Source of the DNA: Myxococcus xanthus
GTDB lineage: Bacteria > Myxococcota > Myxococcia > Myxococcales > Myxococcaceae
Assembly (NCBI RefSeq): GCF_006402735.1
Contig: NZ_CP017174.1
Span: 6,676,001 to 6,740,000, forward strand
DNA length: 64,000 nucleotides
Direction of reading: 5' to 3'
Made by a program: the position numbers and the translations under genes. Below, one piece after another: positions 17,474-22,632 of the stretch. Under the pieces are notes generated by a model. That model worked only from the letters and a program-made list of their open reading frames with translations, had not been told where the DNA came from and did not search any database. Each line of letters starts with the position of its first letter. The stretch's first letter is position 1.

Positions 17474-17884
17474 ATGAAATCGGCATTCAAGGGTGAGCAC
17501 GCGAAGGCCGTGCTCTCCCGGTGGCACGACCATTTCCGCGGCCGCCTGCGGGTGCCCACGGAGAGCCGGACGGTGCAGACCCGTGTCGGTGACACACATG
17601 TGCTGGTAGGCGGTCCAGAAGCCGCGCCCAACGTGGTCGTCCTCCACGGGGCGCTCGCGAGCTCCGCGCATGTGCTCCACGAGCTGGCCCCCTGCTGGAG
17701 CAGTTCCGTCTTCACGCGGTGGACGTCGTCGGCCAGTCGGTGAAGAGCGCGGATGTGCGGCCTTCGGTGGCGAACAACGCGTATGGCGAGTGGCTCCGAG
17801 ACGTCCTGGATGGGCTGGCGCTCCAGCGCCCCCATGTGGTGCCGGCTCGCCGCTCGCAACTCCATCGCCATCTCCTGGCGTAAG
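17474..17884 (+). pseudogene. Frameshifted alpha/beta-hydrolase remnant
   Basis: The frame from the ATG at 17474 encodes a plausible hydrolase N-terminus (SRWHDHFRGRLRVPTESRTV, VVVLHGALASSAHV), with the oxyanion-region LHG motif, and then derails near 17690. The natural continuation is in another frame (LEQFRLHAVDVVGQSVKSAD, then NAYGEWLRDVLDGLALQRPH) and ends at 17881-17883. A single lost base in the CCCCC run explains the shift. The nucleophile elbow and everything after it are missing. It is a decayed gene, with no sign of a functional product. Confidence 0.75.
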
Positions 17885-18131
17885 AACAAGTTCGAGAAAA
17901 CGGGTGACGGGTCCCGGCTCACGCACGGAGGCACGGCAGGCGAGACGCCGTCACGCTTCGTGAACTGGGTCGTCCTACATCCCCGGGATGAATCACCTGC
18001 GCACGGCGGGCGTCGCAGCCGTGCCCATTGACCAGCGCTACGTCAGCCAGGGCATTGGTACCGGCCCCGCCGAGCGACTGGAGAAGTACGGCTCCGACCA
18101 CTTCGCCTACACCGCGACGGTCCGGTACTGA
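17885..18131 (+). pseudogene. C-terminal remnant of an endonuclease/exonuclease/phosphatase-like gene
   Basis: One frame reads TPSRFVNWVV up to about 17975. A different frame then reads SYIPGMNHLRTAGVAAVPID, later EKYGSDHFAYTATVRY, and stops at 18129-18131. The two parts join naturally if one base is restored. The G-SDHF ending is typical of the endonuclease/exonuclease/phosphatase superfamily, where Asp-His are active-site residues. The N-terminal bulk of the domain is absent. The family assignment rests on the short C-terminus only. Confidence 0.45.
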
Positions 18132-18198: not shown

Positions 18199-18309
18199 AT
18201 GTCACAGCACGCTATCGAGGACCCCGTCGAGGACAGTGTCCAAGAGGTGCTGCGCTTGGCCTGGGATGACCAGGCCAAGCGGCAGCGCTTCGGCGCGCTG
18301 TACGCGTGA
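18199..18309 (+). pseudogene. Short truncated ORF, 36 residues
   Basis: An ATG at 18199 opens a 36-codon frame (VQEVLRLAWDDQAKRQRFGALYA) ending at TGA 18307-18309. Composition is protein-like and helical, but there is no clear domain, and it sits among broken genes. In frame after the TGA another 15 codons follow before a TAG at 18355-18357. It may be the head of a longer decayed gene. I would not claim a functional small protein. Confidence 0.35.
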
Positions 18310-18363
18310 CAGGGGCAGCACGACTGCCTGCCCGATGCTTCGATTCCGAGGTAGGCTGACACC

Positions 18364-18747
18364 ATGGTGCCTCTGACCGACCGGGCTGCGCTGCCTCAGG
18401 AAGCGCGCTCCGCCCTGGAAAAGGAGCTGGCATCCCTCACGCTGCTCCAGGACGTCGTGCGCTGGGGCTTCGCGAGCTCGCCGCCGCGCGATGTCACGGA
18501 GGTCATCGTCCAGGACGAGTTCACCCACGACGTGGTGATGCCGTGGATGGAAGGCAGCTACCTCGTCTTTGACACGACCTGACTGGGCGGAGTCACTGCG
18601 GTCTCCGTGTGGGACCACCGACCCAGCGCAGATGAACTCCTCGATGCCCGGCTTGCATCCGGATGGACGCCGACGCCCACGAGCACCGTCGACGGCGACA
18701 TCATCATGGGACATGCCGCGTGCAGAGTGCCGCCTCAACGGCCCTGA
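18364..18747 (+). CDS. Hypothetical gene with one in-frame TGA: selenoprotein candidate or nonsense mutant
   Basis: The frame from the ATG at 18364 runs for 127 codons to a TGA at 18745-18747 with a single internal TGA at 18580-18582. Before it: LLQDVVRWGFASSPPRDVTE, FTHDVVMPWMEGSYLVFDTT. After it, with no frameshift: LGGVTAVSVWDHRPSADELL, ASGWTPTPTSTVDGDIIMGH. Composition and codon use are equally good on both sides. Bases 18583-18626 can fold into a hairpin (outer stem CTGGG/CCCAG, inner stem CGGAG/CTCCG) with GGT at +18 to +20 after the TGA, near where bacterial SECIS loops carry GGU. Without readthrough a 72-residue product is made. Neighbouring genes are decayed, so a plain nonsense mutation remains the simplest view. 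Family not recognised. Confidence 0.5.
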
Positions 18748-19559: not shown

Positions 19560-22445
19560 CTACTGGCCGTCGAGCCTGCCGTCCAGGTTCCGGTCGAGCG
19601 CGATGCGCCTGCCGGAGCCCGGAGGAACCGCGGTGAAGGTCACCTCCTGCCCCGCGGTGTTCGCCAGCGCCCGGAGCGCCGCGGTGGAGATGTTCGCGCC
19701 GCCGTCATCGGGCTTCCAGGTCCCGGGACCCCGTTCGTACAGGAAACCCTTCACCCGGCTGCCGACGGCTACCTTCGCCACCACGTCAGCCTCGTAGGTC
19801 GCGCCACCGAGAACCTTGGACGCGAACTGCGCTCGGGACCGCGCAATCAGCAGGTCGATGCGCGCCCCCACGTTGGCGGCATTCGATGCCGTGAGCGTCA
19901 CTTGCTGGCCGACAATCGGCGCCAGGTCGGTGTCCGCCGCCAGCATGAAGTCCTCCATCTGGCGACGCTCGGTGTCGTTCCGGAAGCCCACGAGGGGCCC
20001 ACCAATGCTGGTGTTGGAGAACACGATGGCGCTGAAGAAGCGGAACAGGGTGTCCACCGCGCCGTCATGCGTGAAGCCGAAGCCGCGAACCTGGTCACCC
20101 ACCTGCCCCGTCTCCGGATGCAGGAAGAAGCTGCTGTCCGGGAAGCCGAACATGCCAACCTTCGTGTACATGGTCCGCACGTGGGGAATCTTCATGATCT
20201 GGCTGATGCCCTCGAAGCTGGAACGGGTATCCGTGCCGAAGAAGCCCTGCGCACCGTCAATCGTGTGGCAGCCATTGCAGTTGAACCCGTTGTCATCGCC
20301 AATCGCGATGCCGTCCACCCGGCGGCTGCCGAAGTAGAAGTCGCTCGCCGCCTTCTGCGAAGCCGTGAGCGCGTTGTCCAGCCTGCGAATGGGGTTGGGC
20401 GGCAGCTGCACCTGGAGTTGGAAGGCCGTGAACTTGTCCATCTCCGCCTCGGTGGGCATGGACGCGCGGCCCAGCAGCTCCGGGAAGGCGACGATGAAGT
20501 TCTTGAAGGACATCTCCTCCCCGCCGGCATCGACACCGAAGAAGCCATTTGAACGGTCACCCCGCCAGTGCATGGCGCCCTGATTCGTCATGCCGCGCAG
20601 GGTCTGCGTCGTCATGGGCCCCTTCATCGGGTGGAACTCGTTCTGCTTCCCCGTTCCGTTGAGGGGCGAGCTCGGGTGGCCGGTGAAAGCACGGAAGATG
20701 CCAATCTCCAGGTCGCTCGCGAGGCGCATGTTGATGGGATTGGCCGTCACCGTCGCATCCGGGTTGCCCAGGTCCCAGGCGAGTTCGTCCTTGTCACCGA
20801 AGATGTGGCAACTGGCGCACGACGACTCACCGTTGGCCGATGAGAAGTTGGCGTCATAGAGGAACGGGCGGCCCTGGACGACGGAGGCGGGCTCCGGATT
20901 GTAGAGCGACACCGAGGACAGCTGCGCCTTGGTGGCCAGGTCGATGACCTTCACCGCGTTGTCGAAGCGGGTCATCACGTAGAGGCGATTGCGAGCCTCG
21001 TCCAGGACCAGACCGCTGGGCCCGCCGCCACTCACCGGGATGTGGTTGGCGCTCGCGGTGCGAGGGTCGAACGCATTGCTCTCCAGCGACGCCGTGTCGT
21101 AGACGCCAATCTTGCTGGAGCTGAACGCGGCCACGTACAGCTTCGTGCCATCCCGGGAGACGACCATCTCCGTCGGCGTGGAGAGGCTGTGGTTCTTCAC
21201 CGAGGGGTCGAAGCCGGGCTTCCCCGCCAGCTTCGAGTAGTCGATGTGCTTGTTGAGATGCCGAGGGTAGGCCGTGCCCCCGGAGATGACGGTGATGCGC
21301 ATCTGCGCGAGGTTGCCCTGCACCGTGCTGCCGCCGTATTCACCGGCGCCCTCGAAGCGGGTCAGGTTGTTGGCCTCGCTGTTGGACGCATACACCACGC
21401 CCGACTTCGGATTGGTGGCCAGGTTGAAGAGGGTGGTGCCCACACCCGAGAAGGAAGCCGTCTCCTGAAGGGTGTCCGCGTCGATGGCGAAGACGTCCTT
21501 GTCCGGCAGACGCAGGCGCACGCCGTTGTTGAAGTTGCGGCCCAGCGTGTCCTGCCACTGCCCGGCGGCGCTGTTCCACTTCACGATGAGGGCGGTCTCC
21601 GGCGCCTTCGCGCCCTCGAAGTTCGTCGCGGGCCCAGGCAATCCGCCCGGCATCAGGTTGTTGCCGAATGGCGGGGTGTCGGGGAAGACGAGGCACATGT
21701 CCCGTTCCTTGAACCCGTCGCAGACGCTCCCCAGGCTGACGGACGTCGTCTGATTGCCGGACTGGGCAATGGCCGCATAGACAGTCTTCTTGTCCGGGCT
21801 GGTGGCGAGCCCGCGCGGCGTGTCGCCGAAGAGCGTCACGATGCGCAGGGGCGTACCGCCCAGCGTCGCCCCGAGCGAAGCCGGGTTGAAGACCCAGACG
21901 TCCGCGCGCCCCACGCCAGGCGTGGTCAGCTTCGGGTCTCCCGACCCGGGAACCGCGGCGATGGACGGGTCGGTGCGGTGCTGCCCCCGGTGCGCGGTGG
22001 TGATGAAGGCATGACCGTTGGTGCCGGCGAAGACGATGTCGCGCGGCTCATCGCCCACGAGCAGCGTGCGCACTACCCGCGGCGTGCCCACCAGGCTCAC
22101 CACGCTGATGCTGTCCGACAGGTGGTTGACCACCCAGACTTCCGTGTCGCTGCGCGCGGCGACAGCGACGGGCTCCAGGCCCACCGGCACCGCCGCGATG
22201 AGCGAGAGCCCCGCGCTGCTGATGGAAAAGACCTCCAAGCGGTTGTCCGGCGTGTTGACGGCGAACAACCGCGTCCCGTCCGGGGAGAGCGCCAGGGGAC
22301 GCACGTGCGCGCTGTCGAACGTGATGAACGAGGGCACCTGGGCCGTGGCGGTGAATGCAGCCAACAAAGACACCACGGCGCACAACGAGACGGCGCGAGC
22401 GCGCCAACAACTCCTGCGCACGCCCACTTGCTGAGTACCCACCAT
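19560..22445 (-). CDS. Secreted YncE-like beta-propeller fused to a di-haem cytochrome c domain
   Basis: The product has 961 residues. GAGGAGG lies six bases before the ATG at 22445. The signal peptide (AVVSLLAAFTATA|Q) sends it to the periplasm or outside. Residues about 25-500 are propeller repeats of the YncE/40-residue YVTN type (VRPLALSPDGTRLFAVNTPD, VGDEPRDIVFAGTNGHAFIT, TPTEMVVSRDGTKLYVAAFS). The C-terminal half has two haem-c sites, CASCH (543-547) and CNGCH (723-727), in a cytochrome-c-peroxidase/MauG-like layout (AFPELLGRASMPTEAEM, TRSSFEGISQIMKIPHVRTM). The tail is a short VPPGSGRRIALDRNLDG segment. It probably oxidises or relays electrons from an unknown partner. It is divergent from a MalT-like regulator, a likely controller. 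Confidence 0.9.
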   Translation of the reverse strand: MVGTQQVGVRRSCWRARAVSLCAVVSLLAAFTATAQVPSFITFDSAHVRPLALSPDGTRLFAVNTPDNRLEVFSISSAGLSLIAAVPVGLEPVAVAARSDTEVWVVNHLSDSISVVSLVGTPRVVRTLLVGDEPRDIVFAGTNGHAFITTAHRGQHRTDPSIAAVPGSGDPKLTTPGVGRADVWVFNPASLGATLGGTPLRIVTLFGDTPRGLATSPDKKTVYAAIAQSGNQTTSVSLGSVCDGFKERDMCLVFPDTPPFGNNLMPGGLPGPATNFEGAKAPETALIVKWNSAAGQWQDTLGRNFNNGVRLRLPDKDVFAIDADTLQETASFSGVGTTLFNLATNPKSGVVYASNSEANNLTRFEGAGEYGGSTVQGNLAQMRITVISGGTAYPRHLNKHIDYSKLAGKPGFDPSVKNHSLSTPTEMVVSRDGTKLYVAAFSSSKIGVYDTASLESNAFDPRTASANHIPVSGGGPSGLVLDEARNRLYVMTRFDNAVKVIDLATKAQLSSVSLYNPEPASVVQGRPFLYDANFSSANGESSCASCHIFGDKDELAWDLGNPDATVTANPINMRLASDLEIGIFRAFTGHPSSPLNGTGKQNEFHPMKGPMTTQTLRGMTNQGAMHWRGDRSNGFFGVDAGGEEMSFKNFIVAFPELLGRASMPTEAEMDKFTAFQLQVQLPPNPIRRLDNALTASQKAASDFYFGSRRVDGIAIGDDNGFNCNGCHTIDGAQGFFGTDTRSSFEGISQIMKIPHVRTMYTKVGMFGFPDSSFFLHPETGQVGDQVRGFGFTHDGAVDTLFRFFSAIVFSNTSIGGPLVGFRNDTERRQMEDFMLAADTDLAPIVGQQVTLTASNAANVGARIDLLIARSRAQFASKVLGGATYEADVVAKVAVGSRVKGFLYERGPGTWKPDDGGANISTAALRALANTAGQEVTFTAVPPGSGRRIALDRNLDGRLDGQ

Positions 22446-22632
22446 AGGGACCTCCTCACGAGACGGGGAAACGTTGCTGTCCATGGATTAGCAGTGGACT
22501 TCGCGACAACGCCCCCACCGAAGGGAGGGGGAACGGCCCCTCCCCACGCCCAAAGGCAGTCACCGGCACGGCGCGTCAGGCCTTGCTCGCGAGCGCCCGG
22601 CGCCGCAAAGCCGCGAAACCGCGTGTGTAACG

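Follow-up and report, generated by a model that had tools for sequence, protein, structure and literature searches.

Bacterial selenoproteins whose selenocysteine (Sec) is decoded by SelA, SelB, SelC and SelD under the direction of a bSECIS element include formate dehydrogenase, SelW-like and Prx-like proteins. Table 1 of PMC13188914 (2026) lists 119 selenoprotein families and subfamilies, and the bSECIS consensus model given in that paper allows a distance of 16–37 nt from the TGA codon. Myxobacteria are not mentioned in the main text of the earlier selenoprotein survey papers examined, and our search of the open-access literature for myxobacterial selenoproteins found nothing relevant. Here we describe a gene in a 64,000-nucleotide stretch of the Myxococcus xanthus genome (the window; the host genome is a single contig of 9.3 Mb) that carries an in-frame TGA, which a first-pass annotation had flagged as a possible Sec codon. 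The features discussed below, all on the forward strand, are as follows.

18364–18747, +: putative selenoprotein gene of 127 residues, of which residue 73 is Sec; ends at the stop codon TGA, 18745–18747
18511–18531, +: motif QDEFTHD, residues 50–56; Q50, D51, E52, F53, H55 and D56 are invariant in 36 sequences
18580–18582, +: TGA, almost certainly read as selenocysteine (Sec73), in the motif FDTT-U-LGG; same column in 80/80 loci, Cys (TGT) in homologue L115
18600–18616, +: predicted SECIS hairpin of type B; GGUCUC 18600–18605, loop CGUGU 18606–18610, GGGACC 18611–18616
18721–18723, +: codon (TGC) of Cys120, candidate resolving cysteine; a Cys lies 38–56 residues after Sec in 80/80 proteins

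The 127-codon frame from 18364 to 18747 is interrupted only by the TGA at 18580–18582, as the first-pass annotation had claimed, and runs from an ATG to the TGA at 18745–18747. The start agrees with the MVPLxD starts of relatives in the alignment. Wherever annotation ends at the internal TGA, the gene is truncated, being cut in half. Upstream, between 17474 and 18130, the open reading frames appear broken; the beginning of this region resembles an alpha/beta hydrolase (VVLHGALASSAHVLHEL), and no Pfam match was found for two fragments taken from it. On the opposite strand, 19560–22484 encodes a 974-residue protein with a match to lactonase-like beta-propellers and a weak match to di-haem cytochrome c peroxidases (MauG-type).

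The TGA occupies one column in all 80 homologous loci that were checked residue by residue, which extend down to ~40% identity (40–98%) and come from Myxococcota, Acidobacteriota, Gemmatimonadota and other metagenome-assembled genomes (MAGs). When 61 related genomes were searched with the read-through protein, with X placed at the TGA, 30 carried a homologue; each match contained exactly one TGA, and all 30 TGAs fell into one column once aligned. A pattern search limited to one genome per species, part of which are the same species as in the 61-genome search, returned 50 loci with the TGA at the same place in every one, at identities down to 40%, from Myxococcus, Pyxidicoccus, Corallococcus, Hyalangium and Archangium as well as from Acidobacteriota, Gemmatimonadota and other MAGs. 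This agreement (30/30 and 50/50) is far above chance and bears out the earlier remark that protein quality is equal past the TGA. Profile searching across 195 Myxococcota genomes identified 56 carriers, each with exactly one in-frame TGA, and among 396 genomes from the phylum of locus L073 (Acidobacteriota by record name) 14 homologues were found, 12 with the TGA. Every sequence in a 36-member alignment has Thr before the TGA and Gly at +2. The record titled Comamonas sp. KCTC 72670 (L035), whose protein is 84% identical to the window protein, and the MAG titled Klebsiella pneumoniae (L079), which also carries the family, point to mislabelled or mixed records. In the close relative L022, the gene nears a contig end, its last third is read in a different continuation and a further piece lies on a separate contig, which is probably an assembly break.

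Few homologues lack the TGA, and those that do carry cysteine. The full-length homologue L115, 44% identical to the window protein, has a Cys codon (TGT) exactly at the TGA column. The remote homologue L124 (E = 1e-7) reads STNCNGGV where the family has DTTULGGV, as does its relative L132; profile comparison backs the homology of both to the family (hhalign probability 95%). These two proteins (147 and 142 residues) resemble the family in that GEFHHD aligns with QDEFTHD and TNC-N-GGV with TTU-L-GGV, but differ from it in having Cys for Sec and in their C-terminal half. The genome of L124 is without SelA; no Pfam or NCBIfam name was found for L124, and plasmids searched with L115 and L124 contained no match. 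Trp, Arg or Gly was not seen in the TGA column of any homologue examined. The column thus holds TGA (dozens of cases) or Cys (one clear case and two remote), never Trp or Arg, in support of the Sec reading, although with three Cys homologues seen, the usual argument from Cys/Sec pairs has few cases behind it.

The machinery for Sec insertion is complete in the window's genome. All four genes that the first-pass annotation had proposed to look for are present: selA (E = 1e-138), selB (309.6 bits over joined parts, against a cut-off of 242), the tRNA-Sec gene with a TCA anticodon (70 bits), and selD (386 bits, with no internal TGA in the matched region). SelA occurs in 53 of the 61 related genomes and in all 30 family carriers among them; the family was found in none of the eight SelA-negative relatives. 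Since SelA is common among these relatives, its co-occurrence with the family is statistically weak at this range. Across phyla the co-occurrence is telling: SelA is present in 26 of 27 distant carriers, the exception being the L077 genome, a metagenome bin, and in 9/9 further TGA carriers tested.

A SECIS-like hairpin exists downstream of the TGA and is conserved beyond the needs of the protein, at a site that differs from that of the hairpin drawn in the first-pass annotation. The pairs of the latter (CTGGG/CCCAG and CGGAG/CTCCG) are disrupted in numerous relatives having the same TGA. The GGT noted at +18 to +20 does exist and is conserved, GGTC being found at +18 to +21 in 43/45 sequences of this type, but it lies in the stem here and not in an apical loop. 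Folding energy in the hairpin region is unremarkable against shuffles (z = 0.09 for 18575–18630) and the z-scores are uninformative, so that support for a SECIS element comes from conservation and not from folding energy.

Two hairpin types can be distinguished among the homologues, with positions numbered from the T of the TGA. Type B comprises 45 distinct sequences, including that of the window, which have Ser (TC- codon) eight residues after Sec and pair positions 21–26 with 32–37; in the window, this gives a 6-bp stem with a loop starting 23 nt past the TGA (−8.1 kcal/mol for 26 nt). Each pair is kept in 44 or 45 of the 45 sequences; L056 and L122, which belong to different parts of the tree, both show a two-sided replacement of G-C by A-U at pair 22/36. 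Type A comprises 29 distinct sequences, which have Ala (GC- codon) eight residues after Sec, pair positions 16–20 with 25–29 and display the loop GGUC or AGUU at a spacing of 17 nt from the TGA. The four innermost pairs of type A are formed in 29/29 sequences, variously as G-C, A-U or C-G, and the ends of the loop covary as G..C or A..U (20:9) with no exception, at third codon positions. Against a null of random synonymous codons, which ignores the relatedness of the sequences, all five type A pairs are formed in 93% of sequences (39% expected) and all five outer type B pairs in 98% (10% expected). The predicted hairpins of both types fit the bSECIS model in loop size, loop G and spacing (17 and 23 nt). 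In the Cys homologue L115, both hairpin types are broken.

The Ala/Ser choice tied to hairpin type falls at residue 81 of the window protein (L073/L057-type versus L001-type loci). Mapped onto a maximum-likelihood tree, Ala/Ser state and hairpin type have to switch together three times, and well-supported branches force at least two of these switches. Two SECIS architectures that swap together with Ala/Ser at one residue represent a case in which an RNA signal in the coding region shapes the evolution of the protein.

Selection across the TGA was assessed with 29 sequences, drawn from Myxococcus-like genomes and their near relatives. The median dN/dS is 0.27 before the TGA and 0.17 after it, and the diversity of codon positions 1/2/3 goes from 0.17/0.11/0.32 ahead of the TGA to 0.10/0.08/0.32 past it. 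On these estimates, purifying selection is stronger after the TGA than before it, pointing to translation of the downstream part; neither a pseudogene tail nor an antisense gene would be expected to yield such values.

Taken together, conservation, machinery and structure lead us to infer that the TGA at 18580–18582 is a selenocysteine codon, with a probability of about 0.96, and the homologue column, the sel genes and the conserved hairpin all favour this reading of the first-pass annotation. The same annotation had kept a nonsense mutation in a decaying gene as the null, with the TGA as a newly arisen stop and what follows it as a remnant. The upstream stretches (17474–18130) that appear frame-broken in the list of open reading frames would be in keeping with decay, but the TGA sits in the same column in dozens of species from different phyla, and purifying selection is stronger past it than ahead of it; together these exclude the null for practical purposes and leave it highly improbable. 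Programmed read-through of the TGA by a near-cognate tRNA (Trp, Arg or Gly), yielding a short and a long product without Sec, is compatible with a conserved TGA taken by itself; we regard it as very unlikely, given that the non-TGA homologues have Cys and not Trp, Arg or Gly, that SelA is nearly always present in carriers, and that a SECIS-type hairpin is kept at the right spacing and has decayed in the Cys homologue. The least probable explanation, which we consider negligible, is that the conserved product is that of a 178-residue antisense open reading frame (18202–18738, −), the sense frame being a side effect of high G+C content. That frame is long and many relatives are likewise open on the minus strand, but substitutions before and after the TGA alike cluster at third codon positions of the sense frame, the sense dN/dS is low, and Acidobacteriota relatives keep the sense protein at ~42–57% identity. 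In the selenocysteine reading, SelB and Sec-tRNA(Sec) would decode the TGA at 18580–18582, directed by the hairpin at 18600–18616.

In terms of protein architecture, the AlphaFold model of the window protein (mean pLDDT 94, pTM 0.88) contains strands at residues 46–51, 54–60, 66–72 and 76–83 and helices at 12–22, 28–37 and 89–98. In this model, Sec73 sits in the turn between strands 66–72 and 76–83, and E52/F53 sit in the turn between 46–51 and 54–60; assuming a simple antiparallel sheet, we infer that the two turns lie at the same edge. Beyond the residues of the QDEFTHD motif, T72, Sec73, G75, P87, W101 and G116 are invariant in the 36 diverse sequences. Searches of Pfam and NCBIfam, including selenoprotein models, gave nothing over a cut-off, and a sequence search of the PDB did not find a relative. 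With regard to a thioredoxin-like fold with a Sec/Cys active-site motif, Foldseek against the PDB and viral structures returned weak scattered matches, none with E ≤ 0.001, the highest VIA-align Z score, 5.2, belongs to a different sort of protein, and the alignment has no CxxU or UxxC motif; these results do not make a case for a new fold. No member of the family turned up in viral contigs.

The protein is probably a small redox enzyme. Residue conservation is what suggests a thiol/selenol redox role, in which we have moderate confidence. Sec73 could serve as the attacking nucleophile, placed in the turn that joins two antiparallel strands next to QDEFTHD, with E52, H55 and D56 shaping the site and the C-terminal Cys120 resolving Sec73 as a selenenylsulfide; the exact Sec73/Cys120 pair is held with less confidence than the redox role itself. 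The main rival on function is a selenoprotein in which Sec binds a metal or metalloid together with His55, Asp/Glu and Cys120, without redox catalysis. Invariant E52, H55 and D56, near Sec by the predicted strand order, and the conserved Cys would suit such a site; most characterised selenoproteins, however, are redox enzymes (PMC13188914), and no recurrent metal-handling neighbour accompanies the gene, though three Acidobacteriota loci (L061, L070 and L075) have a gene for a Fur-family regulator downstream. We consider a metal or metalloid site unlikely, but a good deal less so than the rival readings of the TGA. The neighbourhood is not shared between phyla: in several Acidobacteriota loci, a HEAT-repeat cyclophilin gene stands directly upstream of the selenoprotein gene, with DUF4112 and further genes downstream. 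This does not suffice to name a function.

The best reading is that this family is undescribed in the literature searched and keeps Sec almost without exception. None of the 119 families in Table 1 of PMC13188914 is an evident counterpart, and the family matches no NCBIfam model, whereas many families in that table have one. Its absence from inventories is plausibly explained by the near-lack of Cys homologues, which makes searches miss such families. More tentatively, and at somewhat less than even odds, this would be a family with near-obligatory Sec whose scaffold has no recognisable counterpart among solved structures; it could then be one reason for the retention of the Sec machinery in aerobic myxobacteria and Acidobacteriota, and would have been missed because standard searches need abundant Cys homologues. 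With this gene, the bacterial selenoproteome gains a family, in a genus that serves as a standard laboratory model.

Compared with the bSECIS selenoproteins decoded by SelA, SelB, SelC and SelD, such as formate dehydrogenase, SelW-like and Prx-like proteins, the present family is without a Pfam or NCBIfam match, is almost without Cys homologues and lacks a CxxU or UxxC motif, which is absent from the alignment. It resembles the hypothetical families GOS_B, GOS_C, OS_HP3-5, DG, DW and DF from earlier surveys (PMC13188914, Table 1), which are likewise small, of unknown function and found via an in-frame TGA. It differs from the hypothetical families that have an NCBIfam model (GOS_A and others have none) in giving no match to those models, and its own family motif is TU(L/I/V/H)G.
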